Shown one piece after another: positions 1,168 to 31,416 of a DNA stretch of 36,118 nucleotides. The position numbers and the translations under genes were made by a program. The notes under the pieces were generated by a model. That model had not been told where the DNA came from, did no database searches, and saw nothing but the letters and a program-made list of their open reading frames with translations. This DNA is from a virus. How positions within the stretch are numbered: position 1 is the stretch's first letter; every line of letters starts with the position of its first letter. The DNA lies in IMG/VR virus record IMGVR_UViG_3300035688_000031, positions 1-36,118 of that record. The stretch is one strand, 5' to 3'.

Positions 1168-3945
1168 CTAGGCCACCATCGCCTTTAGTTTCTGTTCCAA
1201 ACTATCCTCGAAGTCCTGCCTTCTTTCCGGTGGCATGTCAAAAACCCACTCAACCCTATAATTGTGGAAGGCCATCCACTTTTCGTATTCTTCTATTGGC
1301 ACCTTGCTCTTGTTCGGATCGTATACGTAACCCCCAGCGAAGGCCACGGCGTGAGACCGCATCTTCGACTCGGTGTGGCGGATCGTGACAGACCCAGCAC
1401 CGGTTTGGGGTATGTGTTTCTCTTCCATGCTGACTTTGGCTATGTCAAGTTGGTTGTTATAGTCCTCCCATTCAACTGCCATCCAGGGTACAAATGCCTC
1501 CACAGCCGCACTGATCTGATTGTGCGTGCCACGATATGCCTTTGCGCTTCCTAACTTAACCGTCATATAACTCCGGACGACCTCCAAAGATTTGCCCGAA
1601 AGCATTGCAATAGTCGCGAGAGCGCATTCCCCTGGTCGTTGGCTTTGGTGCTCAATGATGACCGGGGCTTCTTGTTCTTGTTTGGCGTCAGGCATAATCT
1701 TACTGACATCGACACCCAAATGATGGAGGAAATGATAGCTCATGGAATTCCATGATCGAAGGGCTTCTAGCACCTTTTCGTCTATTGTGTCCTTCATCAC
1801 AAAGTCCACAATAGTCAAGTTGTCTCGCATTCCTATGCGGTGACACCTTTCTTGGGCTTGGTATCTGTCGGTTTTGACGAAGGAATTCGAGAAAAAGAAT
1901 TCATAATTGGCGCCCACCAAATTAATCGCATGAGCACCTACCGCACTGTTTATCACCAAGAATCTCAATGGAGATGCCAAGTCATTGAATCTCTGATTGA
2001 TATCCCACCTTTCCCTTCTTCTGCTGTCACACTTCGGGCATGACTCCCCGCCGTGCACAATGGCGACGGATTTCTCTCCGAATTCCTTTCGGATCGCATC
2101 ATGAAGAAGATGCAAGTCATTGGTGAAACGACTCCAGATAACTACCTTGTCCTCGTCAGCAAGGTCTTGAAGCATGTCAATGACCGCATCCAACTTGGGA
2201 TTCTCCGGCAAGTTTATCAAATTGTGATTGTCATCATATATCCACCCGTTGGCTGCTTCAGCTAGTTTAGCCATCATCGCGAACACATTGAGAAGAGTAA
2301 CACGGCCACCGCTGGCCGCTATGTCTCCTAACTCTGCCATGAGATAATTCTTCAGCGCTTCATACAACTTTGCTTGGACCTCTCCCATCTCTATGAGTCT
2401 GGTCTCATAGGTCTTCTCTGGCAGATCCAAACATTCATCCTTCTCGAACTTGACACTTACTTCTTCTAGACGATCCCGGAGTTCCTCGATAGTGAAATCG
2501 TGCGGCTCGCACGAAGAACCTCGAATCGTAAAATAGGCTTTCTTGAACTGCTCTAGGAGAGTCTCAAGAGAAAGTGGCGTTGCATCCCCTCTTTCATTGA
2601 AGACACTGTTAAAAGTCTTTCCCTTATTCAAGAACACGAAAGGAGGATGAATGTCGTACAGTTTGTTAGCGTTGATGGTCCCGGACATGCCTACAGTATA
2701 GGGCACGTCACGGAATGCCTTCAGGATATTTTGGGTACGTTGGGCTCCCGGATTTTTGATCTTGTGGATCTCGTCAATGACTACCATATCCCATGGCACT
2801 AATCCAAAGACTGCAGCCAGCGGCAGTTTATAGTTATTGCCATTGGCTTGAATCTCACTTTTCATCGCAAAAGCCTCGAAGTTAGTTATATAAATAACTC
2901 CGGGTTTCCGGTTGAGTATAATCTGCATGCGCTCAGAATAACTCCCGGTTATTATAGCATACTCTAGGTGAGGGGTATGTTTCTTCATTTCATTTAATGC
3001 CCAATTTTCACAGGCATTGTTCGGACATATCACCAGCACGTATTCCACTTCTTTTCTCTTGAGGCGTTGATCGATGACCATTAATGTGGAGAATGTCTTT
3101 CCCGTGCCCATCTTGCTTAGATTCATGTAATGGTTGAGCGTCATTCCTATTTTGTAGCTGATTTTTTGGTGAATCATTGGCTCGTCGGAGCTGACCACCT
3201 CATAATCAAAGTCTCCGTTAGAGATACCTTCATTACGATATCGCCTTACAGCGAGGAGTCTCTCCTGGATAGAAAGAATAAACGGAGTTAGCAATGAAAA
3301 GACTTGAGCACAGACTCCTTCCATATGGATGTCGAGACCGTTCGGAAAGGACCATTTAAGGTGGGAAACGTTGACGCTTTCTAACGTGGCTTGTTTGCGT
3401 CTCTTTATGACCTTTATCCTCTTCGCTCGGTATGCAACGATCCCTGCGATTGCTATGTCGATGTCGTTTATGATGTCATTAAAGGCATCATTAAGGGAAA
3501 CTTCGCCTTCGGATCTGATGTCTCCATCTTCTCCGGCATCTTTCTTAAAGGAATCGGTGATGGCCCGTTTTGCCCGGCTCATCATGGAAAACTCATCTTT
3601 AAGATGCTTCCTGATCCGCTTCGCGATATCCTCCACCAGGATTGGTTCTTCTACGTAGGTATAGGTGGTAGTGGTCTTGGTGGATGGTGTGGCGTCGATG
3701 GAATCGGCCCGGGCAAAGTTTTCGAAGACAGGGATCAGCGGATAAAGTAGATCCCCGTAGTCCGTGTAAGACATCCTTCCCAAAGCCTCCTTGGCGAGGT
3801 TCTCCCAACGGTAATGGTAGGTTGAGGAATAAGATCCGGGCAACCTCGGTGGTTGTTCCTTACTAAGGGTTAGTTTAAGATAGGTGTCATGATCTGTGAG
3901 CGTGGCATCCACGCTCACTCTATCTTCACCGGGTCTTTTCTTCAT
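1168..3945 (-). CDS. SNF2-family helicase fused to a C39-like peptidase domain
   Basis: A 925-residue superfamily 2 ATPase/translocase of the SNF2 type. Visible motifs are Walker A MGTGKT (279-284), DEIH (391-394), motif III SGT (421-423) and the SNF2 signature QERCHRIG (698-705). A possible zinc pair CPKC lies at 636-639. Residues about 1-240 are unassigned and highly charged. The unusual part is the C-terminus. Residues about 765-885 match the layout of C39-type papain-like peptidases: a Gln/Cys block QRPGECALATIAML with Cys774, then SHAV with His865, then VYDP with Asp876. SNF2 proteins in phages usually remodel DNA-protein complexes or aid replication and transcription. The peptidase role is inferred only from the C-H-D pattern; it could be a binding-only relative. 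The start ATG 3945 has a GAGGG site. The gene ends in TAG. Confidence 0.88.
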   Translation of the reverse strand: MKKRPGEDRVSVDATLTDHDTYLKLTLSKEQPPRLPGSYSSTYHYRWENLAKEALGRMSYTDYGDLLYPLIPVFENFARADSIDATPSTKTTTTYTYVEEPILVEDIAKRIRKHLKDEFSMMSRAKRAITDSFKKDAGEDGDIRSEGEVSLNDAFNDIINDIDIAIAGIVAYRAKRIKVIKRRKQATLESVNVSHLKWSFPNGLDIHMEGVCAQVFSLLTPFILSIQERLLAVRRYRNEGISNGDFDYEVVSSDEPMIHQKISYKIGMTLNHYMNLSKMGTGKTFSTLMVIDQRLKRKEVEYVLVICPNNACENWALNEMKKHTPHLEYAIITGSYSERMQIILNRKPGVIYITNFEAFAMKSEIQANGNNYKLPLAAVFGLVPWDMVVIDEIHKIKNPGAQRTQNILKAFRDVPYTVGMSGTINANKLYDIHPPFVFLNKGKTFNSVFNERGDATPLSLETLLEQFKKAYFTIRGSSCEPHDFTIEELRDRLEEVSVKFEKDECLDLPEKTYETRLIEMGEVQAKLYEALKNYLMAELGDIAASGGRVTLLNVFAMMAKLAEAANGWIYDDNHNLINLPENPKLDAVIDMLQDLADEDKVVIWSRFTNDLHLLHDAIRKEFGEKSVAIVHGGESCPKCDSRRRERWDINQRFNDLASPLRFLVINSAVGAHAINLVGANYEFFFSNSFVKTDRYQAQERCHRIGMRDNLTIVDFVMKDTIDEKVLEALRSWNSMSYHFLHHLGVDVSKIMPDAKQEQEAPVIIEHQSQRPGECALATIAMLSGKSLEVVRSYMTVKLGSAKAYRGTHNQISAAVEAFVPWMAVEWEDYNNQLDIAKVSMEEKHIPQTGAGSVTIRHTESKMRSHAVAFAGGYVYDPNKSKVPIEEYEKWMAFHNYRVEWVFDMPPERRQDFEDSLEQKLKAMVA

Positions 3946-14110: not shown

Positions 14111-14440
14111 TTGGCGAAGAAACATCGTATGACCAACGTCTTCAAAATAGGTAAAGTGTTAGAAATCGACACGACGGTTGAAATCCGATATGTTGGTTGG
14201 CAGATCGGACAACGGCCTCACATTGCATGGCCGGGAGAGAAAAATCCGCCAATAACAGAGGGTTACCTTGCGAAGATGTTGTTGGTGGATAAGGTTGATA
14301 TCACATTACCATTTGACGATGATGTGATTAGTTCGTGTACAGTCAAACATCCCACACCGACCATTTTAAACTTGGCTTTTGAGAAAGTATCGATAATCCA
14401 GGCGGATTATGAAAAAGTGCATCCAGATGCCAAAGAATAA
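14111..14440 (+). CDS. Hypothetical virion-cluster protein, 109 aa
   Basis: The proposed start is TTG 14111, with a GGAAA-like site about 9 bases upstream; ATG 14129 is an alternative. The product is probably beta-rich ([20 protein letters not shown]) and has no recognised domain. It overlaps the following Ser-rich protein gene by 32 bases, so the two are probably coupled, and its position suggests a structural or assembly partner of that protein. A very short frame in the portal frame ([12 protein letters not shown]...) overlaps its start and is not counted as a gene. Confidence 0.55.
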
Positions 14441-16736
14441 AAATATAGGACCATTTCTGGCATTTAATGAAACGTGGTTCGCACGTAATCAACGGCCACT
14501 GTTAACGCTCGTGAACTGTCCGTTCACGCCTATCCGCCGCCTGATTCGTTATATACTCAGGATTGGATCTATAGACTGTGATCTTCGAAAGCAGATTTTT
14601 TATCTTGGTCCTAACAGGTTTACCATATCACTCGGAAACAATAAGTTTCAAACAGACTTTCGCACACATCCCAAGTACGCAAAACGTGTTTATTTCGCTG
14701 CTCGTCCGCTTTGGCATTTGCTTCATATGTGGGATTCGTTGTTGGCTGATCGGTGGCTGCCGGAATTGTCGTATGGATTTGCTGAACTGACAGTATATCC
14801 ACAAGCGGATGGAGGAGGGGCTAATGTAACGTGTGATGGTCCTATTCGTAATATTGTTGATCCTACTAATTGGGCAACTATTCACGATGCCAGCAGTGGA
14901 ACAAGTGCAGTTGTAACTAACATTATGGACTTCATCTGGATAGTAGGCGCTCAAACCGAAAATACTTATGATGATATATCCAGATTTTTCGCTTCATTTG
15001 ATACATCTACTTTGCCTTCCAATGCCGTAATCTCAATCGCTATTTTGTCATTATATGGTTATGGCAAGGCCAACGTTCTTGGAGGGTCGGCCCCATCACT
15101 TGATATCTATTTGTCAACTCAAACCAACGCAAATACTCTCGTAGTCGGCGATTTTTCTAAGTGTGGAACAACTTCTCAAACCGGATCCCCAATCACGTAT
15201 GCATCATTCAATACGTCAGCATATAACGGTTTCACCTTTAACGTTTATACTGGCATAGTTAAAGCGGGTATCTCCAAATTCTGCATTCGAGAGGCGACAA
15301 ATGATGCACCCTACATACAACCTACATGGGCATGGGGTCAGAACGGATTTACTATTTGTACTTCCGATTACACCGGCACGGGTTGCGATCCGAAACTCGT
15401 CGTAACTTACACCATTAGCAGTCCGTCGGCTTCTATTTCACCATCAGCGTCTATTTCACCTTCTGCTTCTATCTCGCCATCGAGATCGATTTCTGCTTCT
15501 ATTTCACCTTCAGCTTCTATTTCACCTTCAGGTTCGATCTCAGCATCTATAAGTCCTTCTGCTTCTATCTCCCCTTCGGCTTCTATTTCACCATCGGCAT
15601 CAGTATCGGCGAGTATCTCCCCTTCGGCTTCTATTTCACCATCGGCATCAGAATCAGCATCAGTATCACCATCTGCCTCAGAATCTCCTTCAGCCTCTGA
15701 ATCAGCTAGTATTTCACCTTCAGCCTCTGAATCGCCATCTGCTTCTATCTCTCCATCGGCTTCCGAATCAGCGAGTGTTTCTCCATCAGCATCTATCTCT
15801 CCTTCAGTTAGTGAGTCTGCATCTGTTTCTCCATCAGCATCTATAAGTCCATCTGCTTCTATCTCCCCGTCAGCATCAGAATCAGCATCGGTTTCACCGT
15901 CAGCATCAGAATCAGCGAGTGTTTCTCCTTCCGCTTCAGTTTCTCCTTCAGTTTCAATATCAGTCTCAATTTCTCCATCAGCATCTATAAGTCCATCGGC
16001 TAGTGAGTCAGTCTCAATCTCACCCTCTGCTTCCATAAGTCCGTCAGCATCAGAATCAGCGAGTGTTTCTCCTTCGGCATCGGTTTCTCCGTCGGGTTCA
16101 GAATCGGCATCTGTAAGTCCATCGGTTTCAGTTTCCCCGTCAGCATCAGAATCGGCTAGTATCAGTCCATCTGCCTCTATAAGCCCATCAGCATCAGAAT
16201 CAGCATCTATAAGCCCATCAGCATCAGAATCACCATCGGCATCAGAATCAGCATCAGTATCACCTTCAGCATCAGCATCGACTAGTGAATCACCATCAGC
16301 ATCTATAAGTCCCTCAATTTCTGTTTCTCCTTCCGCATCGGAATCAGCTTCTATAAGTCCCTCTGCCTCAGAATCTCCTTCAGCCTCTGAATCAGTTAGT
16401 ATTTCACCATCAGCTTCTATAAGTCCCTCTGCCTCAGAATCACCATCTGTTAGCGTCTCAGTATCTATTTCACCCTCTGCTTCCGTCTCTCTTTCGGCTT
16501 CGGTGTCGGCCTCCAAAAGCCCTTCTGCGAGCAAAAGCCCATCAGTATCTATAAGTCCTTCTGCTAGTGAAAGTTTCAGTGTCAGTCCATCATTTAGTGT
16601 GTCACCATCAATGAGTATTTCGCCATCATTTAGTGTATCGCCATCGGCATCAGTATCGGCGACAATAACATTTATATCATTGGCTTTTGTTTTGAAAAAA
16701 CCTACCATTACTTTCTCCTTAACTGGGGGTGATTAA
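14409..16736 (+). CDS. Ser-rich fibre-like protein with DNRLRE-like domain and SPSAS repeats, 775 aa
   Basis: Residues about 95-335 form a beta-rich domain ([31 protein letters not shown]) that resembles DNRLRE/jelly-roll modules found in fibre and adhesin proteins. Residues about 336-755 are more than 400 residues of the low-complexity unit S-P-S-A-S-x, alternating with E-S-A-S-V. The end ([17 protein letters not shown]) is hydrophobic. There is no transmembrane anchor at the start. The repeats are coded with mixed TCN and AGY serine codons. Such a domain is likely extended and a good acceptor for O-linked sugars, and the glycosyltransferase cassette starts just after the next gene. The start ATG 14409 has a poor AGGCGG site; ATG 14427 is possible. 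The exact virion role (head fibre or tail fibre) is not shown. Confidence 0.75.
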
Positions 16737-17908
16737 TGCCACGACTTTCACACAATGGATTAGAGGTGGAGTGGGGAGCATTCCCTGACATTACATCCAC
16801 CAACAGTTATGTGGATGTGGGAAAATGGACCACATCCTTCTTCCGTACCAAAGTACTGCACTTCTCGGTGGAGGCCGCGCCCTCACCTTCCATTTCACCC
16901 TCCGCCAGTATCAGTCCATCGGGAAGTATCTCGGCAAGCATTTCACCTTCGGCTTCAGTTTCTATCTCACCCTCTGCGAGTATTAGTCCATCGGAGAGCA
17001 TCTCGGCTTCGGCTTCAGAATCACCTTCAAAGTCACCTTCGGCTTCAGTCTCCAGGAGTCCCTCAGCATCTGTTAGCCCTTCAGCGAGTATGTCGCCTTC
17101 GGTTAGTATCAGCGCCTCCGTTTCACCATCGGCTTCTATCAGTCTTTCAGCGAGTGTTTCACCGTCGACTTCCAGAAGTCCTTCGGCCTCCATTAGTCCT
17201 TCGAGATCGGAATCCGCGAGTATTTCGCCTTCAAGTTCGATGTCGGCCTCTGTAAGTCCTTCGTCTTCGGAATCAGCAAGTATCTCACCTTCGGCTTCGG
17301 TATCACCGTCGGCATCCGAATCAGCCTCGGTTTCCCCATCAAGATCAGTTTCGGCTTCAGAATCACCCTCCGCATCAGGCTCATCGACGGCATCAGTTTC
17401 TATTTCGGCTTCAGAATCACCTTCTGCTTCTATTTCACCCTCGGCATCAGTATCACCTTCAGCATCAGCATCGACTAGTGAATCACCATCAGCATCAGAA
17501 TCCCCCTCCGCCTCAGAATCAGCAAGTATTTCACCTTCGGCTTCTGTAAGTCCCTCTGCTTCTGTCTCTCCTTCAACTTCGATGTCGGCCTCTAAAAGTC
17601 CCTCTGCGAGCAAAAGTCCATCAGCCTCCATCTCCCCCTCCGCATCTTGGAGTCCGTCCGGTTCGATGTCCCCCTCTCTCAGCCCATCACCGGCACCATC
17701 CACCGATCTTTGGATCAACGTGCTCGGTAGCATGGACGGAGGCGTCACTTATGACAGGGAAGTCGAAATGGGTTTCACCGTTACCACTGCCCTCGCCGTC
17801 GTTAAGTCTTATACTGATCCCTACACCAACCTGAAAGTGCAGGTAAAGTCAAAGGTCGTCGGGGAACACGGTATCTTATCCTGTAAGTATCTGGGAGTCT
17901 GGTTCTAA
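16736..17908 (+). CDS. Second SPSAS-linker virion protein, 390 aa
   Basis: The start ATG 16736 shares one base with the preceding stop (TAATG) and has a GGGGGTG site. A short N-terminal domain (1-49, [15 protein letters not shown]) is joined by about 270 residues of SPSAS-type repeats (50-320) to a C-terminal beta-rich domain (321-390, [20 protein letters not shown]). The repeat region thus forms a flexible stalk between two folded ends, which fits a spike or fibre subunit. The next gene, a glycosyltransferase, overlaps the stop by one base, so the stalk protein and the enzyme are translated together. Function is inferred from architecture. Confidence 0.72.
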
Positions 17909-18825
17909 TGAGTTACATTCCGGGTAAAGTATCGGTATTGATAGCATCCAGAAACGAATGCTATCTTCAATGCACGGTAGATGACATCTTTGCGAAGGCT
18001 GAGGGAGATGTAGAGGTCATCGTGGTTCTGGATGGATACTGGCCGGCACCGCCCCTCCACGACCATAAGAATCTGGTGATCATTCACAAACCGGTTTCTG
18101 TCGGTCTCAGACCGGCCATTAACGCCGCCGCAGCAGTTGCCACCGGCGAATTCGTGATGAAAACCGATGCCCATTGCATGTTTGGTCAGGGATTTGATAC
18201 CATTCTGAAGGCGGACTGTGAGGCTGATTGGTTGGTTGTGCCTCGTCGTGTCAGTTTAGATCCGGAAAAGTGGTGTGTAGCAGAAACCGGCAGATCCCCC
18301 GTCGATTACGAATACATCTCTTATCCTTACAAGGATTTCGTGGCCGGCACGAGAATGCCGAGTGTGAGGGTGGGGAATGTATGGAACGACCGGGCGCGCG
18401 AGCGCTTACACATCTCCATCGACGACGATATGTCGTTTCAGGGTTCATGTTGGTTCATGCACCGTGACTACTTTCGTGAAAAGATTGGTCCTCTTCAAAG
18501 TGAAGGTTGGGGTACATTCGTACTCGAACCTGAAGAGTTAGGTAACAAAGTGTGGTTGTCGGGTGGGCGTGTTATCATCAATAAGAAAACTCAGTACGCT
18601 CATTGGCACAAGGGGAAAAATGGCAGGGGTTACTTTATTGATAGACGCGGTCTTCTGCACGGCAGAGAATTCAACATCGATTATTGGATGAATAATAGGT
18701 GGTTGAAGGCTATTCACCCTTTTTCATGGCTTATAGACAAATTCTGGCCCGTTCCGACATGGCCGACAGATTGGAAGGAGATAGGTGACCCTCGATTACA
18801 TAAAACAGAAGTTCCCATTTCTTGA
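17908..18825 (+). CDS. GT-A family 2 glycosyltransferase with DxH motif
   Basis: This is a 305-residue nucleotide-sugar-dependent glycosyltransferase of GT-A fold. Visible parts are the nucleotide-binding start KVSVLIASRNE (7-17), VEVIVVLDGYW (35-45) and EFVMKTDAHC (81-90), where Asp87-x-His89 takes the place of the usual DxD metal site. A DxH site in this place is also known from polypeptide GalNAc-transferases, which modify Ser/Thr. A later GSCWFMHRDYF segment fits the acceptor side. It is paralogous to residues 1-330 of the 22530 protein. It starts in TAATG overlap with a Ser-rich stalk gene, which suggests that protein as substrate. The sugar and acceptor are not determined by the sequence. 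Confidence 0.85.
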   Translation: MSYIPGKVSVLIASRNECYLQCTVDDIFAKAEGDVEVIVVLDGYWPAPPLHDHKNLVIIHKPVSVGLRPAINAAAAVATGEFVMKTDAHCMFGQGFDTILKADCEADWLVVPRRVSLDPEKWCVAETGRSPVDYEYISYPYKDFVAGTRMPSVRVGNVWNDRARERLHISIDDDMSFQGSCWFMHRDYFREKIGPLQSEGWGTFVLEPEELGNKVWLSGGRVIINKKTQYAHWHKGKNGRGYFIDRRGLLHGREFNIDYWMNNRWLKAIHPFSWLIDKFWPVPTWPTDWKEIGDPRLHKTEVPIS

Positions 18826-19417
18826 CTTTAACCAGAAGAAGATGCCCATCTACATTAAAGAGATGGGAAGGTTGGAGTTAGCTACACTCTTCTGTGAGCT
18901 TGGTTTTAGAACAGGTGTCGAAATCGGCGTCGAGAGCGGCATGTATTCCGAGCACCTATGTCTAGCCAATCCAGGATTGCGTCTGTTTAGCATCGATCCC
19001 TACATGTATTATCCCGAACCGGACGTCGGTAGTCAGGATAAGCAGGACAAGTTCTATAAATGGGCTCAGGACAGACTCTCAAAGTTCAGGAACTGCACTT
19101 TGGTCAGAAACTTCAGCATGAATGCAGTTAAGGATTTTAATGATCACACCCTAGATTTTGTGTATATCGACGGCAACCATCACCTCAAATATGTCATCGA
19201 GGATATCTATGAATGGAGTAAAAAGATTAGGTCCGGCGGCATCCTTGCCGGTCACGATTACATCATTTTGAGGAACTGGAAAGAGACCCATGTGGTGGCC
19301 GCGGTGAATGCCTATACCACCGTATATAAGATCAGACCGTGGTTTCTTATTGGTGATAGAGGCAAGACGAATCCTAAAAGGGAAGGACGCAGATCCTTCT
19401 TTTGGATCATTCAGTGA
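18785..19417 (+). CDS. Class I SAM-dependent methyltransferase, 210 aa
   Basis: The start is GTG 18785, with an AAGGAG site four bases upstream, and overlaps the glycosyltransferase gene by 41 bases. SAM-binding motif I is EIGVESGMYSE (46-56), followed by the acidic ribose-binding position in FSIDPY (68-73), then FVYIDGNHH and GGILAGHDY. This layout fits the Methyltransf_24 group, which often modifies sugars. It is a close relative of the 20335-20973 protein. Placed between glycosyltransferases, it most likely methylates a sugar of the phage glycan, though a small-molecule or nucleotide target cannot be excluded. Confidence 0.85.
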   Translation: MTLDYIKQKFPFLDFNQKKMPIYIKEMGRLELATLFCELGFRTGVEIGVESGMYSEHLCLANPGLRLFSIDPYMYYPEPDVGSQDKQDKFYKWAQDRLSKFRNCTLVRNFSMNAVKDFNDHTLDFVYIDGNHHLKYVIEDIYEWSKKIRSGGILAGHDYIILRNWKETHVVAAVNAYTTVYKIRPWFLIGDRGKTNPKREGRRSFFWIIQ

Positions 19418-20163
19418 GAATTGACGTTTATACCATAATTCGCAATGAGGAGAAGATGTTGCCATATTTTCTCCGTCATTACTCTACATTTGCATCTCGG
19501 ATTCTGATCTTTGATGAACAAAGTACAGATCGCACCCGGGCCATCCTTAAAGAATACCCATTAACTGAGGTTCGGGATTGGGAGGGGAATGTCGATGACA
19601 AGGAGGTAGAAGGCATAGATGATGTGCTTTTTCGCCACTTCTACGACATGGAATATAGATCCCGTAGTCGTGGTGTAGCGGATTGGGTAATGTGTCCGGA
19701 TGTTGACGAGTTCATCTATCACCCTTACATCCTGGACATCCTCCAGGATTGTCTTAAGAGAGGTGTGAGTGTGATCCAATGTGAAGGTTATCAGATGATT
19801 TCTGATCATTTTCCTGTTAACGGTGGTCAGATCTACGATGGAGTTCGCACGGGCATTTACGATGCATGGCATAATAAGCCCATCATCTTCTCTCCCGATA
19901 TCGACATGAGTTTCAAGTTAGGTCGGCATGGCTTCAATCCAGACGATGGTACAAAATTAGCCGTAGATACACACATCAAACTCCTTCATTATCGTTATCT
20001 CGGCCGTGATTATTGTTTGGAACGCAACATGAGGAACATCGAGAGGATGTCTGATCGCAACAAGATCCACAAGTTAGGCAGACACAACCATCCGGAGAGT
20101 ACTTACTACGGTAGTTTGCCGTGGTTTGATCAAGTTAAAGATTATGCCACTGAGGTCATTTAA
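19414..20163 (+). CDS. Glycosyltransferase family 2-type with DVDEF motif, 249 aa
   Basis: The N-terminus RIDVYTIIRNEEKMLPYFLRH is typical of the Glyco_tranf_2_4/GT92-like group, and WVMCPDVDEF (91-100) is its metal-binding motif. A segment HIKLLHYRYLGRDY near the C-terminus fits the conserved acceptor-side Trp/His region of the family. The start is taken as GTG 19414, overlapping the methyltransferase stop (GTGA); TTG 19402 is an alternative. It lacks the Asp-x-His form seen in the 17908 and 22530 enzymes and probably adds a later sugar to the chain. Donor and linkage are unknown. Confidence 0.82.
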   Translation: MRIDVYTIIRNEEKMLPYFLRHYSTFASRILIFDEQSTDRTRAILKEYPLTEVRDWEGNVDDKEVEGIDDVLFRHFYDMEYRSRSRGVADWVMCPDVDEFIYHPYILDILQDCLKRGVSVIQCEGYQMISDHFPVNGGQIYDGVRTGIYDAWHNKPIIFSPDIDMSFKLGRHGFNPDDGTKLAVDTHIKLLHYRYLGRDYCLERNMRNIERMSDRNKIHKLGRHNHPESTYYGSLPWFDQVKDYATEVI

Positions 20164-20165
20164 AG

Positions 20166-20360
20166 ATGGACTTCATAACAGCCTTACAACGTGTCAAAGA
20201 GGGTGCCGCGATTGCCCGTGAACTCTGGGATAATGTGGCTACTTTCGTCGTTATACACGAAGGCATTTTATGTATAAGGATGAAAGATGAGATCTTCCAT
20301 CCGTGGACCGTTACAGAATCTGACATTTACGCACATGACTGGGTCGAACTTGACACTTAA
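20166..20360 (+). CDS. tad2: Tad2-like protein (DUF2829), putative anti-Thoeris
   Basis: A 64-residue protein with the DUF2829 pattern: an N-terminal MDFITALQRVKEGAAIAREL helix followed by W, a central strand with IRMKD, then HPWTVTESDIYAHDWVELD, where the W-T-x-S/E-D-x-x-A-x-DW ending is the family signature. Tad2 proteins of this family oligomerise and sequester the cyclic ADP-ribose signal of Thoeris immunity; other DUF2829 members may bind related nucleotides. At 64 residues it is shorter than typical members (about 80-90), mainly by a short central loop. It lies between a glycosyltransferase and a methyltransferase, overlapping the latter. The symbol is by family resemblance; binding activity is inferred. 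Confidence 0.72.
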   Translation: MDFITALQRVKEGAAIARELWDNVATFVVIHEGILCIRMKDEIFHPWTVTESDIYAHDWVELDT

Positions 20361-20973
20361 TCACATCCTAACCAGATTTGGAGTGGGTGGGCAGCCATCA
20401 CCGATATGTGTGCCTATCGGTAGGGATGGACTTGCATCTCTCTTCTGTGAATTGGGCTTCAAAGAAGGAGCGGAGATCGGTGTCGAGACTGGTGGTTATT
20501 CAGAGGTTCTTCTACGAGCAAATCCTGGCCTCAAGTTGTATTGTGTAGATCCATGGAAGGCTTACAGAGGTTATCGAGACCATGTTGATCAGAAGAAACT
20601 TGATCATTTTTATGGTGTGGCTAGTGCCAGGTTAGAACCTCTGGGTGGGGTTATCGTCAGAAAATTCAGTATGGATGCCGTCAAAGATTTCAAAGGTGGT
20701 TCTCTGGATTTTGTGTACATCGACGGCAACCACAACTTCTCTCATGTTGCGCAGGACATTCATGAATGGGGCAGGAAGGTCAAATCCGGCGGGATCGTTT
20801 CTGGTCATGATTATCAGAAGTTTAAACGACCCACCGAAGTCCATGTCATGTGTGTTGTGAATGGTTACACCTACAGTTACGGCATATCCCCGTGGTTTTT
20901 AACCACCAGCAAGGAAACAGTGGATGGAGTTGAGCAGCATACTCCAAAGTCTTATTTTTGGGTAAAAGCATGA
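20335..20973 (+). CDS. Class I SAM-dependent methyltransferase, 212 aa
   Basis: I start at ATG 20335, which overlaps the Tad2-like gene and gives a length matching the paralogue at 18785. Motif I is EIGVETGGYSE (47-57), then LYCVDPW, FVYIDGNHNF and GGIVSGHDY. It shares these blocks with the 18785 protein, so a duplication is likely, and the two may methylate different positions of the same glycan. No clear ribosome site precedes the ATG, which fits coupling from the overlapping gene. The stop overlaps the next start (ATGA). Target not determined. Confidence 0.84.
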   Translation: MTGSNLTLNHILTRFGVGGQPSPICVPIGRDGLASLFCELGFKEGAEIGVETGGYSEVLLRANPGLKLYCVDPWKAYRGYRDHVDQKKLDHFYGVASARLEPLGGVIVRKFSMDAVKDFKGGSLDFVYIDGNHNFSHVAQDIHEWGRKVKSGGIVSGHDYQKFKRPTEVHVMCVVNGYTYSYGISPWFLTTSKETVDGVEQHTPKSYFWVKA

Positions 20974-21635
20974 AGAACGTTGCTGTCATTACCGCTAATT
21001 TGGGCAATTTCGATCCGCCAGCCGCACACATTCTTAACCGTTCGGCCGATGTGGAATATTTTAGGTTTGACGACAACAACCTTGCTCCACGAAAGAATAG
21101 TATGTCTCCTCGCTTGCAGGCACACATCCCTAAATGCTTTGGATGGAGTCTCTGTCCAGGTTTTGATTATTATATTTGGGTGGATGCTTCTTGTGCTTTT
21201 CGTCATCCGGATTCCATAAGGTGGTTCCTTTCGAAATGTGAAGGCCACGATATTGCACTATTTGCCCATCCGAATCGCCATAGTATCGTGGAGGAAGCGG
21301 AGTTCATGCGGGCACAGATCGCAGTCGGTAACAAATATCTTACATCGAGATATGCCGGTGAAGACATAGACGGACAACTTGCAGAAATAAATTCCGATCC
21401 CGGTTATAAGGACGATACTTTATATGCGGCTACCGCTTTTATCTACCGCAATCTTAGTGTGGTTAGGGCGATGCTAAAGGAGTGGTGGTATTACTCCTCT
21501 CGTTATCATGTTAACGATCAACTTTCTCTCCCATATGTTGTATGGAAAAGTGGATGTAGAGTTAATGTGATTGCGGAGAATTATTTGAAGATCCCATATT
21601 TGACTTACATCCGTAACCAGAGTCGAAGCCAATGA
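20970..21635 (+). CDS. Putative glycosyltransferase, DUF616/TOD1-MUCI70-like, 221 aa
   Basis: The start ATG 20970 overlaps the previous stop (ATGA). The N-terminus MKNVAVITANLG and the central YIWVDASCAFRHPDS (WVDAS at 70-74) resemble the core of the DUF616/TOD1-MUCI70 group, whose members are predicted glycosyltransferases; the downstream LYAATAFIYRN and HVNDQLSLPYVVWK blocks also fit that group. Family assignment is by motif recall only. It is probably another sugar-adding enzyme of the cassette. An unrelated GT-A protein is the alternative. Confidence 0.68.
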   Translation: MKNVAVITANLGNFDPPAAHILNRSADVEYFRFDDNNLAPRKNSMSPRLQAHIPKCFGWSLCPGFDYYIWVDASCAFRHPDSIRWFLSKCEGHDIALFAHPNRHSIVEEAEFMRAQIAVGNKYLTSRYAGEDIDGQLAEINSDPGYKDDTLYAATAFIYRNLSVVRAMLKEWWYYSSRYHVNDQLSLPYVVWKSGCRVNVIAENYLKIPYLTYIRNQSRSQ

Positions 21636-22351
21636 AAGACATAACCATCATTTTTTATACGGCTAATGTCATCTCCGAAGGATTCGCGGCGGCCATCCGC
21701 GAACAGTTGGTGATAGCAGCCTGCGGGATCCCAATAATCAGTGTTTCACAAAAGCCCATGCCAAACTTTGGCCAGAACATCTGTGTAGGTGATATTGGTC
21801 GTTCGCACGTCAACATCTATAAGCAGGCACTAATTGGTGCTCAAGCCGCCACCACCACATCTTACGTGGCTATGTGTGAAGATGATGTCCTTTATCATCC
21901 CTCCCATTTTACCTGTCATCGTCCGGTCACTTTCGCCTATAACATGAACAAATGGACGGTGCATACGTGGGATAAGCATCCACGTTTCTCCCAGAAGCAT
22001 CGAGCGGTGTTTAGTCAGTGTATCGCACCGCGAGAAATGCTCATTCAGAACCTTACCGAGCGGTTCTCCAAGAATCTTTCTGAACACGATCTAAAAATAC
22101 ACTTTGCTGAACCCGGACGTTTCCATGATTCTTATCTCGGCATCACCTCAACTAAAGAGGAATTCTTTTCATCCCACCCTAATATTGTCTTCTTCCATGT
22201 CGATGCAATGGCAATGACGGAAGGACCAGGGAAAAAGCATGCTCATGTTGGGGAAATCGCAGAATCGGTAGAGCCGTGGGGCGCAGCACGGGATGTGCTC
22301 TTGAAATATGTGGGGGAAGAGGAAATAGCGAGACAGAAAGGGACACCATGA
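21632..22351 (+). CDS. Putative GT-A-type glycosyltransferase, 239 aa
   Basis: The N-terminus ITIIFYTANVISEGFAAAI is followed by YVAMCEDDVLYHPSHF (79-94), where Glu-Asp-Asp is a probable metal and nucleotide-sugar site. The same segment recurs in the second half of the 22530 protein (CEHDILYHPSHF), so the two are homologous. The start overlaps the previous stop by four bases, and its own stop overlaps the next ATG. It probably transfers one sugar in the cassette; donor and acceptor are unknown. No membrane segment is visible, so it acts in the cytoplasm. Confidence 0.75.
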   Translation: MKDITIIFYTANVISEGFAAAIREQLVIAACGIPIISVSQKPMPNFGQNICVGDIGRSHVNIYKQALIGAQAATTTSYVAMCEDDVLYHPSHFTCHRPVTFAYNMNKWTVHTWDKHPRFSQKHRAVFSQCIAPREMLIQNLTERFSKNLSEHDLKIHFAEPGRFHDSYLGITSTKEEFFSSHPNIVFFHVDAMAMTEGPGKKHAHVGEIAESVEPWGAARDVLLKYVGEEEIARQKGTP

Positions 22352-22530
22352 CTAAACGTATTGTGCGATGTATAGGTCGTAGGTATTTAGAGATCGAAAG
22401 GTTGCCAAACGGCCAGGTTTCGATCTCCATCATGTGGAAAGAGACGGAGAAGATAGCGACATTGGTCTTCGAGTCCGAAGAGATAAGGAAGATGTGGCCA
22501 TCAGCCAACACGATTCTTAAGGGAAAATAA
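22348..22530 (+). CDS. Hypothetical protein, 60 aa
   Basis: ATG 22348 overlaps the previous stop (ATGA) and has an AAAGGG site, and its own stop overlaps the start of the 22530 gene by one base. The product (MTKRIVRCIGRRYLEIERLP...) is basic and predicted beta then helix. It matches no family I know. Coupling on both sides says it is translated with the glycosyltransferases and may be a partner of one of them. Confidence 0.6.
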   Translation: MTKRIVRCIGRRYLEIERLPNGQVSISIMWKETEKIATLVFESEEIRKMWPSANTILKGK

Positions 22531-24176
22531 TGCCCCATAACCTATCCATCCTGATTCCCGCACGGAACGAGATGTTCCTCCCCAATACCATAGAGGACAT
22601 CCTCAAGAATATACGTGGAGATACTGAGATCATCGCGATCCTCGACGGGTCATGGCCGACCACGCCTATCGAAGATCATCCACAGGTCACCCTCGTCTAC
22701 CATCCTGTATCTATTGGACAACGTGCGGCCACTAACGAGGCAGCCAGGCTTTCGAATGCTGAATTTGTGATGAAGTGCGATGCGCATTGTGCATTCGATG
22801 AAGGTTTTGACATAAAACTCATGGAGGAATGTGAAAAGGATTGGACCGTCATTCCTAGGATGTATAACCTTCATGTGTTTGATTGGGTATGCACTTCATG
22901 TGGTCATAGAAAATATCAGGGACCAGAACCACCTAAATGCGAGAAGTGTGAAGGAATTGTTGTTCGTGACATGGTATGGAAACCCCGTTGGCGTAGGATG
23001 ACGGATTTCGCTCGTTTTGACCACGATCTCCACTTCCAATACTGGTCGGCTTATAAAGACCGGTCAGAGGCCCAGGGTGACATCGCAGATGTGATGTGCA
23101 GTGTGGGTGCATGTTGGTTCATGCGCCGAGATCGCTATTGGGAATTAGGAGGAACGGACGAAAAGCATGGAAGTTGGGGGCAGATGGGGGTGGAAATGGC
23201 CTGCAAGGCATGGCTCTCGGGCGGTCGCCAGGTGGTTAATAAAAAAACGTGGTTTTCCCATCTCTTCCGTACTCAACCGGGATTCAGTTTCCCCTATCAT
23301 CATACAGATGCGGCTACGGGCCAGGCCAGATCCTATTCTAAGAAGTTATGGATGGATAATACATGGCCTAAGGCCGTTCATAAACTAGAGTGGCTCATAA
23401 AGAAGTTTGCTCCCGTGCCAGACTGGCCAGAGTACAATACACCGACGCAGACAACACAAGGGCAGATGTCAAAGGGCATTGTTTATTACACCGACAACAG
23501 ACTCGATAAGGTCATGTTCAAGGGTGTCCAACGTCAGATCGTGCGTTGTGTCGATGGCCATTCTATTGTATCGGTGTCGTTGAAAGCCATCGATTTTGGT
23601 AAAAACATAGTGTTTGATGGTAAACGTGGTATTCTTACCATGTTCAAGCAGATACTCGTCGGTCTTGAGACTTCTGACGCCGACATTGTATTCCTGTGCG
23701 AACATGACATTCTTTATCATCCCTCCCACTTTAGGTTTGTCCCTCGGCGCCCTGACGCTTTCTATTATAATGAAAATACATGGAAGGTTGATGCCAAAAC
23801 CGGCCAGGCCCTCTTTTATTACACAAAGCAAACCTCCGGTCTTTGTGCTTACCGTACCTTATTGGTCGAGCATTACCAGAAGAGAGTGGCGAAGGTGGAG
23901 AGTGAGGGTTACAGCCATAATATGGGTTTTGAACCGGGATGCCATCGTCCTCCGCGAGGTGTGGATAATCATCCGGCAGAGAGGTGGATGTCGCCATATC
24001 CCAATATCGATCTCCGCCACGAGCATAACCTGACGCGGAGTAGATGGAACCAGGATCAATTTCATAATAAAAATGCATGTCTGGGATGGAAGATGGCGGA
24101 TGAAGTCCCTGGATGGGGCCAAACTAAGGGCAGGATAGACGCTCTCATTGTGGAACCGGAATATGTCGATGATTAA
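22530..24176 (+). CDS. Two-domain glycosyltransferase fusion with inserted zinc ribbon, 548 aa
   Basis: Residues 1-310 repeat the 17908 enzyme: NLSILIPARNE (4-14), EIIAILDGSW (33-42) and EFVMKCDAHC (78-87) with Asp84-x-His86. Inside this domain lies a zinc-ribbon-like insert with Cys121, Cys124, Cys137 and Cys140 (CTSCGHRKYQGPEPPKCEKC) that the 17908 protein lacks. Residues about 330-545 repeat the 21632 enzyme, with VFLCEHDILYHPSHF (Glu-His-Asp near 391). Each half is a full domain, so one polypeptide could add two sugars in turn. The fusion joins copies of two enzymes that are separate elsewhere in the same cassette. The start follows the previous gene by TAATG overlap. Substrate is inferred, not shown. 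Confidence 0.85.
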   Translation: MPHNLSILIPARNEMFLPNTIEDILKNIRGDTEIIAILDGSWPTTPIEDHPQVTLVYHPVSIGQRAATNEAARLSNAEFVMKCDAHCAFDEGFDIKLMEECEKDWTVIPRMYNLHVFDWVCTSCGHRKYQGPEPPKCEKCEGIVVRDMVWKPRWRRMTDFARFDHDLHFQYWSAYKDRSEAQGDIADVMCSVGACWFMRRDRYWELGGTDEKHGSWGQMGVEMACKAWLSGGRQVVNKKTWFSHLFRTQPGFSFPYHHTDAATGQARSYSKKLWMDNTWPKAVHKLEWLIKKFAPVPDWPEYNTPTQTTQGQMSKGIVYYTDNRLDKVMFKGVQRQIVRCVDGHSIVSVSLKAIDFGKNIVFDGKRGILTMFKQILVGLETSDADIVFLCEHDILYHPSHFRFVPRRPDAFYYNENTWKVDAKTGQALFYYTKQTSGLCAYRTLLVEHYQKRVAKVESEGYSHNMGFEPGCHRPPRGVDNHPAERWMSPYPNIDLRHEHNLTRSRWNQDQFHNKNACLGWKMADEVPGWGQTKGRIDALIVEPEYVDD

Positions 24177-24579
24177 AGAGATTAACGAAGGCAGTTCGGC
24201 GATCATTGAGATCGTCTTCACCGATGAAGATGATGCGCCAATCACACCTTCTGCCATCTATTACCGTGTAGATGATAAGGATGCTAGGGTGAACATCATC
24301 CCTGTTACGGCCGTGGACACGCCGACATCTACTGTTAGTATCGTTTTGCCGGTAACTGCCACGCGCATCTTGACTTCTACTCATGTGTTCGAATTTCGGA
24401 CTCTCACGGTTAATGTGGTATATGGAGATGAGTTACATCATACAGATGAATACACAATCAAAGTCAAGAATTTATACGGTGTGCCATTACCGGTTTCATC
24501 GCCATCATCTTCAGTTTCACCGTCTGTTAGTCCGTCGACGAGTGTGTCACCGTCATCGTCAGCATCAGCATCAACATAG
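24163..24579 (+). CDS. Ig-like virion protein with SPS-rich tail, 138 aa
   Basis: Residues 1-110 are beta-rich: INEGSSAIIEIVFTDEDDAP, YYRVDDKDA, TVSIVLP and HTDEYTIKVKNLYG. This is the pattern of Ig-like phage structural domains found on heads or tails. Residues 112-138 are a Ser/Pro-rich tail (SPSSSVSPSVSPSTS) of the type seen in three other virion proteins. The start is ATG 24163 or 24169, inside the end of the glycosyltransferase gene. The small size suggests a decoration subunit or an adaptor. It is the first structural gene after the glycan cassette, and its tail is a candidate acceptor for that cassette. Confidence 0.62.
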   Translation: MSMIKEINEGSSAIIEIVFTDEDDAPITPSAIYYRVDDKDARVNIIPVTAVDTPTSTVSIVLPVTATRILTSTHVFEFRTLTVNVVYGDELHHTDEYTIKVKNLYGVPLPVSSPSSSVSPSVSPSTSVSPSSSASAST

Positions 24580-30267: not shown

Positions 30268-31416
30268 ATGAGCATAAGACCGCAATGCAGCCGCATCGTC
30301 CTGTCTTACGATAGGGAAGTCGTCTATGGTTCCCCTATCGGCGATGCATATATCGATAAAAGATTCAATCCAACCGCACCGCCGATTATGGATCTTGTGC
30401 AAGCAAGAATCGACGATGCTGCAGACATAAAAGGATTTGAGTGGCCCTACGATACCGATTTGGATATCATCACAGCCCAGGATATTTCGATCCCCTTTTC
30501 CTTCCCCTGCTCTTCTCAGCTTGCGGGATTACTATTTGCGCTCGCAATGGGATCTATAGATTCGAGCTTTGCAGGCGATCCATATACCCATACGCTTAAA
30601 CCTCAGGATGCCTGCGCCGAGGACGTCCTTCCTTCGACTTCCATCGTCGTGGCGCTTATTGGAGATACGGGCACCTACTACTTGCTGAAGGGTGCCATGG
30701 TAGGGGATCTGAAACTCGTTCTGAATAGCGCCGGGAGGCTTATCATCTCCGGCACGTTCCACACCGATGGCACGATTACGCCGAAACCTGGGTTTACTTT
30801 GCCATCTACCCCCGTGGTTCAGGATTGGTTCACCGGCAGGCATGGTGATTTCCACATCGGAAATTATGGTGGCTCGCTGTCCTCGATCAAGACAAAGTTG
30901 AGAACCCTCGACTTCTCGATTGCCAACAACCTGGATCTTGCCGACGGCAGATCTAACGTTGTCAATGCCGGCATTTACCTATCCACCCTCAGATTCGGGG
31001 CCAGGGCTTACACTCTCACAGCTAAATTCGATGGCCATCCTTCCACGAATGATCAATTGTGGGAAGATCACCGTCTGGGAACGGTCAAGGATGTCCAGGT
31101 TCCCATAATCATCACCGCCAACGATAGTATCACGATTAGAATGAAGAAAGCGAAGATCGCGATCTGCAAAGCATCATTCGACGGTCTGAGAGATGTACTT
31201 GACGTTACGTTCAAGGCATTCTACGCCAATTCGGAAGCCGCGCCGGTCGTCGTTACTGTCGTGAACAATGTGCCAATATACCTCGGAAGTGAAGGAGCGA
31301 GTGCTTCAGTTTCACCCTCAGCTTCTATCAGTCCTTCTCAGAGTATGTCAGCGAGTGTTTCTCCATCAGCATCAGTGTCGGCATCAGTCTCGCCGTCGGC
31401 ATCAGCATCAGCATAG
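30268..31416 (+). CDS. Major tail tube protein with SPSAS C-terminal extension, 382 aa
   Basis: Position before the tail chaperones and composition support a tail tube subunit: beta-rich domains (EWPYDTDLDIITAQDISIPF, LKLVLNSAGRLIISGTFHTD, FDGLRDVLDVTFKAFY). A tube domain takes residues about 1-335, and the last 40 residues are SPSAS-type repeats ([19 protein letters not shown]). In a tube with several hundred copies, such tails would project as a dense outer coat. That makes this the most abundant carrier of the repeat in the virion. The stop is TAG, with a second in-frame TAG 6 codons later. Assignment as tube is inferred from order and size. Confidence 0.72.
   Translation: MSIRPQCSRIVLSYDREVVYGSPIGDAYIDKRFNPTAPPIMDLVQARIDDAADIKGFEWPYDTDLDIITAQDISIPFSFPCSSQLAGLLFALAMGSIDSSFAGDPYTHTLKPQDACAEDVLPSTSIVVALIGDTGTYYLLKGAMVGDLKLVLNSAGRLIISGTFHTDGTITPKPGFTLPSTPVVQDWFTGRHGDFHIGNYGGSLSSIKTKLRTLDFSIANNLDLADGRSNVVNAGIYLSTLRFGARAYTLTAKFDGHPSTNDQLWEDHRLGTVKDVQVPIIITANDSITIRMKKAKIAICKASFDGLRDVLDVTFKAFYANSEAAPVVVTVVNNVPIYLGSEGASASVSPSASISPSQSMSASVSPSASVSASVSPSASASA

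Follow-up and report, generated by a model that had tools for sequence, protein, structure and literature searches.

The gene described here encodes a protein that joins a complete SNF2 motor to a C39-like papain-fold domain. The window, the whole stretch of 36,118 nucleotides that was analysed, covers positions 1 to 36,118 of the IMG/VR virus record IMGVR_UViG_3300035688_000031, and the features of the gene within it are collected in Table 1. By profile and by model, a complete SNF2 motor, predicted to be a dsDNA translocase, spans residues 255-740, and residues from about 765 to 900 form a C39-like papain-fold domain; the identity of both domains is very probable. That the C39-like domain is an active enzyme (a protease or an amidase) we regard as probable. 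The explanation that best covers the whole, which we put forward tentatively, is a SNF2 dsDNA translocase with a C-terminally fused, flexibly linked C39-like cysteine peptidase that would act on DNA-bound proteins. A SNF2 motor and a papain-fold, C39-like peptidase in one protein appear to be new in that we have not found them together elsewhere; the parts, and the fusion of SNF2 to a zinc peptidase, are already known.

Table 1. Features of the SNF2-C39 gene (positions are those of the window, residues those of the encoded protein)
Feature	Residues	Positions	Strand	Basis or remark
ORF: N-terminal extension, SNF2 motor, linker and C39-like domain	925 aa	1168-3945	minus	uninterrupted frame
N-terminal extension, mostly helical, low confidence	1-254	3184-3945	minus	pLDDT mostly <55
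SNF2/SWI2 superfamily-2 motor	255-740	1726-3183	minus	phrog_62, Pfam SNF2-rel, invariant motor residues, fold match
Motif I (Walker A), GTGKT	280-284	3094-3108	minus	
Motif II, DEIH	391-394	2764-2775	minus	
Motif VI, QERCHRIG	698-705	1831-1854	minus	
Linker, predicted disordered	741-764	1654-1725	minus	pLDDT <50 across 735-771
C39-like papain-fold domain	765-900 (start approximate)	1246-1653	minus	alignment, model, fold search, hhalign
Gln767 and Gln769, candidates for oxyanion Gln	C-7 and C-5	1639-1647	minus	canonical position is C-6
Cys774, predicted nucleophile	GEC 772-774	1624-1626	minus	invariant in 16, starts helix, aligns with ComA Cys17
His865, predicted catalytic His	SHAV 864-867	1351-1353	minus	alignment; on strand in model
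Asp876 (in YDP), third residue of the predicted triad	VYDP 874-877	1318-1320	minus	alignment; just after strand

The frame runs for 925 codons from an ATG without an internal stop, and a Shine-Dalgarno-like AGAGGG lies just 5' of the ATG. The first-pass annotation, made from the letters alone, had placed the ORF at exactly these positions without giving the strand. The gene sits in a left-hand block of minus-strand, non-structural genes with unassigned functions; from about 9.3 kb onwards, the plus strand encodes terminase, portal, head protease, major head protein and a tape-measure-like protein. A place among non-structural genes, on the strand opposite to the packaging, head and tail genes, is in keeping with an early function or one in replication. 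Among 50,697 phage records there is no near match to the first 25 kb of the window, and its head and terminase proteins have at most about 40% identity to known ones. In the virion gene region, long runs of Ser-Ala/Ile-Ser-Pro-Ser repeats occur in the proteins encoded at 14409-16736 and 16736-17908, and such runs are also found at the ends of those at 24148-24579 and 30268-31416 (all plus strand). By eye, glycosyltransferase- and methyltransferase-like proteins are clustered within the structural gene block (17908-24176, plus strand), perhaps with a role in virion glycosylation.

The motor matches phrog_62 with an E-value of 2e-85 in a profile search and the Pfam SNF2-rel domain with 2e-20. 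Motifs I, II and VI follow one another in the order of a SNF2/SWI2 superfamily-2 ATPase, and the motor residues of the window protein are common to 32 viral relatives in an alignment. A full-length model, calculated from an alignment of motor relatives only (C39 relatives were left out), is confident in this part, with pLDDT mostly 80-96 in the core. The model has the two-lobed SNF2 fold: the comparison with Snf2h and INO80 gives Z 24.5 over about 405 residues, and Z values for Snf2h, INO80, SWR1, Mot1 and ZorD range from about 21 to 24.5 (22 for ZorD). Profile and fold agree with the first-pass annotation, which had recognized a complete motor from the three motifs, and each motif stands where it was reported. 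PADLOC matches to the defence proteins ZorD and DpdE were discounted, as they are due solely to the common SNF2 motor. The 254-residue N-terminal extension is modelled as long helices at low confidence, and no relative of it was present among the ORFs fetched; by eye, it may include a HARP-like segment (RLPGSYSSTYHYRWENL). A flexible tether between the motor and the C39-like domain is supported by the low pLDDT values of the model between residues 735 and 771.

For the C-terminal domain, an AlphaFold2 model was calculated from a 16-row alignment of the window domain with 15 stand-alone phage proteins. The model has pTM 0.72; pLDDT is close to 90 over much of the core, and model residues 81-101 form an uncertain stretch. 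The top VIA-align matches are PCAT1 (Z 9.2, rmsd 4.0 over 129), YopQ (Z 9.1) and ComA (Z 8.9, rmsd 3.2 over 118); values near 9 are modest, but the list is uniform, as the matches listed are papain-fold enzymes throughout. Foldseek gives its best E-values for YopQ and LahT, and in a viral structure library the top match, with E 1.9e-4 and TM 0.63 on target, comes from Bacillus phage vB_BcoS-136 and is named 'Peptidase C39 domain-containing protein'. Because the Z values of PCAT1, YopQ and ComA are nearly tied, the nearest papain-fold branch, C39 or other, is left unsettled. The predicted layout has the C39-like order: the first core helix begins with Cys774, a strand carries His865 and Asp876 comes after the next strand; in LahT, Cys27 is on helix 1, His101 on strand 4 and Asp117 on strand 5 (PMC6363468). 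The C39-like reading had originally rested on a Q..GEC block, SHAV and VYDP within residues 765-885. All three are present at those sites and contain Cys774, His865 and Asp876, Gln767 and Gln769 precede the cysteine, and the predicted fold is papain-like, with PCAT1 and ComA among the best matches.

By sequence, the window domain alone matches phrog_3754 (E 0.011) and phrog_5845 (E 0.055) only weakly, over most of the family length, and the Pfam C39 models (PF03412) gave no match to it, leaving it outside the family profile cut-off. Peptidase_C39 (PF03412) is matched by two stand-alone phage relatives, with a best E-value of 2.3e-4. The stand-alone phage protein L003, which was found using a DNA pattern of Cys block, HAV and YDP, matches Peptidase_C39 with E 0.0028, under the cut-off. 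The L003 protein also resembled RIIA of Kuttervirus (E 0.3-6), a similarity dismissed as chance; the matching region is internal to RIIA, and no Cys-His-Asp set was seen there.

The stand-alone set was gathered using a DNA pattern taken from the window domain, His-Ala-Val/Ile..Gly..Tyr-Asp-Pro, which does not include the cysteine. This pattern matched 21 viral contigs, 15 of which encode a Cys block upstream at about the expected distance. In the resulting alignment the cysteine is invariant in the 15 stand-alone proteins and the window domain; the histidine and aspartate are likewise present throughout, their block being part of the collecting pattern. When the window domain is compared by hhalign with a profile of the 15 stand-alone proteins from which it was left out, the probability is 92.6, the E-value 4.4e-7 and the score 45.6 (best of 100 shuffles, 21.5), a score that is partly selected because the proteins were collected by the His/Asp pattern of the window domain. 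Used alone, the half before His865, which is free of pattern residues, scores 23.7 (best of 100 shuffles, 18.2), and when the whole domain is used with the pattern residues masked, its score is reached by one of 100 shuffles. On these profile comparisons, the window domain is homologous to the stand-alone phage C39-like proteins beyond chance. In hhalign, Cys774 is also aligned weakly with Cys17 of ComA (whose sequence was checked against 8hf4). Profile A3 reached no C39 chain among PDB sequences; the fold comparison alone reached C39.

Stand-alone phage C39-like proteins have been annotated before (PMC9915841, PMC6893657, PMC8790148, PMC10343443). Examples include the 'C39 family peptidase' of Pantoea phage Nufs112, Shewanella phage S0112 and cyanophage S-SRP02, as well as AUM59793 of Pseudomonas phage PMBT14, and the families are phrog_3754, phrog_5845 and phrog_31365. 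PMBT14 encodes its separate C39-like protein near its holin gene. The statement in the first-pass annotation that C39 domains normally process bacteriocin leaders is right for the transporter-linked ones; since stand-alone members occur in phages, a phage is no unusual place for a C39-like domain as such, and what is unusual is its fusion to SNF2. A helicase-family gene is also carried, kilobases away, by 10 of the 15 phages with a stand-alone C39-like gene, as judged with a broad model that also matches all 14 of 14 control genomes. In nine of the 15 viral contigs (L093, L095, L099, L102, L103, L105, L107, L108 and L109), the stand-alone C39-like gene is adjoined by a gene for a NYN-domain protein, a predicted RNase, with one gene between in L095; the two genes overlap in most of the nine, and the Pfam NYN match is above the cut-off in all nine. 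The gene that follows in L108 encodes a class II ribonucleotide reductase, of which L109 carries, by eye, a close homologue at the same place. We found no report of the C39-like and NYN gene pair in the literature searched, and no NYN gene is present in the window.

The fusion had been called odd from the outset, and the search in other phages agrees: it is seen in one contig only. No close relatives of the whole protein or of the C39-like domain were found in viral contigs, nor any of the C39-like domain in phages or plasmids. The fusion is absent from the 80 nearest viral helicases, all of which end 28-54 residues after motif VI, and was not found in the 50,697 phage records. A C39-like profile that does find the PMBT14 and Almagne proteins, both outside its building set, found no C39-like domain in 50 contigs of the nearest viral helicases. 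A motif scan of 84,980 bacterial and archaeal genomes returned four matches, none of them C39-like, and no description of SNF2 with a papain-fold peptidase was found in the literature covered, which was mostly open to read without subscription.

As for function, SNF2 motors strip or remodel DNA-bound proteins, Mot1 acting on TBP and RapA on RNA polymerase. In a comparable way, the motor described here would track along DNA and remodel bound protein, and the tethered domain, if catalytically active as a protease or amidase, would cut or otherwise act on the proteins that the motor meets. The most likely targets would be host proteins, such as RNA polymerase or its factors, nucleoid proteins or defence proteins, and the outcome could be to help take-over or to clear the template. 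An attack on host proteins has been suggested for phage peptidases of patchy occurrence (PMC7824862), and it is this proposal, together with the remodelling of DNA-bound protein by SNF2 motors, that leads us to favour a DNA-guided, tethered protease. That the tethered C39-like peptidase acts on DNA-bound proteins is nevertheless a guarded suggestion, somewhat short of an even chance. Against a coupled protease stand the weak sequence matches of the window domain to known families and the kilobases between C39-like and helicase genes in phages that carry both, and, with the fusion seen in one contig only, evolution offers no support for a link between the two activities. A narrower version, in which one polypeptide scans DNA as a translocase and proteolyses whatever blocks it (polymerase, nucleoid, defence or DNA-crosslinked protein), seems unlikely.

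The closest competitor, doubtful in itself and nearly as likely as a DNA-guided protease, is that the peptidase works in trans, with soluble host proteins as its targets, or is an amidase or deamidase; the fusion would then merely couple expression or localize the enzyme, and its substrates would not be presented by the DNA motor. The relatives are independent small phage proteins that do not adjoin a helicase gene, so elsewhere the C39-like domain works without a motor, and many of the papain-fold matches, being effectors or deubiquitinase-like enzymes, have soluble proteins as their targets. However, a long helicase fused in frame by a flexible tether would be a costly route to a free peptidase, and no clear internal start or release site was found in the ORF.

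It is improbable that the domain is catalytically silent and binds peptides or unfolded protein, as in HlyB. HlyB-type C39-like domains lack the cysteine yet bind substrate (PMC6363468), and two features of the window domain would suit such a role: the spacing between Cys and His differs from that in ComA, and the glutamines are at C-7 and C-5 rather than at C-6, near which several phage C39-like members have a Gln (in LahT, the oxyanion Gln21 is six residues before the nucleophile Cys27; PMC6363468). However, known silent domains have lost the cysteine, whereas here all three residues of the predicted triad are retained, as in all 15 relatives. We give only a slim chance to processing in cis, in which the protease would cut within its own chain and so free the motor and the peptidase. 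The linker is exposed in the model, and the zincin peptidases of polyvalent proteins have been proposed to process their own polypeptide (PMC5512222), but leader-like double-glycine sites are absent both from the protein and from the N-terminal regions of the window ORFs, and the linker has no GG or GA, a weak point since the cleavage specificity of phage C39-like enzymes may differ. Least probable is an artefact, in which two neighbouring genes were joined by misassembly or by a stop codon lost recently by accident: the evidence is a single metagenomic contig, the architecture was found in no relative and G+C content is slightly higher in the C-terminal part (0.51) than in the motor (0.45), but the frame is continuous over all its codons, no start or ribosome-binding site clearly marks a separate C39 gene and no long repeat was found at the junction.

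If the two activities are coupled as in the favoured reading, the protein would be a single-polypeptide, DNA-tracking cysteine protease. Elsewhere this task falls to proteases brought to DNA by recruitment, for example, the SPRTN/Wss1-type metalloproteases at DNA-protein crosslinks. Coupling would also provide a defined enzyme for finding out which proteins are cut by the C39-like proteins of many phages. Without such coupling, too, the gene places a C39-like domain in the context of phage DNA metabolism.

Among known systems, the stand-alone phage C39-like proteins share with the window domain the order of the Cys, His and Asp-Pro blocks, the small papain fold and the phage setting. They differ in being separate genes of 130-190 aa (aligned set) rather than the tail of a SNF2 motor, and identity to the window domain is only 15-21%. 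The C39 domains of ComA, PCAT1 and LahT resemble it in fold (Z about 9), with Cys at the start of the first helix and His and Asp on successive strands. Those exporter domains are N-terminal on ABC transporters and cut double-glycine leaders, an arrangement of family C39 that the window gene does not have: it lacks a transporter part, no leader-like substrate is encoded in the window and the Pfam model is not reached.

On the motor side, the phrog_62 helicases of Vibrio phage phiVC8, Pelagibacter phage HTVC023P and Pseudomonas phage PMBT14 share ECLDLP and the motif VI region with the window motor, at about 27-32% identity, but none has a C39-like domain. By eye, the helicases of the Pseudomonas phages PMBT14, Lebethron and Almagne (L112, 7755-9737; L113, 5842-7833; L114, 5755-7740; all plus strand) have a different C-terminal addition, a HTH-like segment and a Lys/Ala/Pro-rich, histone-H1-like tail, so that C-terminal additions of other kinds also occur in this helicase family. 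The nearest precedent for the combination is found in the polyvalent proteins of phages, plasmids and conjugative elements, in which a DarB-like SNF2 ATPase is fused to a zincin metallopeptidase; the peptidases reported there are of zincin, assemblin-like, DD and LonC types, with no mention of a papain-like one (PMC5512222). Like them, the window protein unites a SNF2 ATPase and a peptidase in one mobile-element protein. It is smaller than most and lacks their usual linked domains; the combination of domains resembles the polyvalent type in outline, and the peptidase is of a different type.
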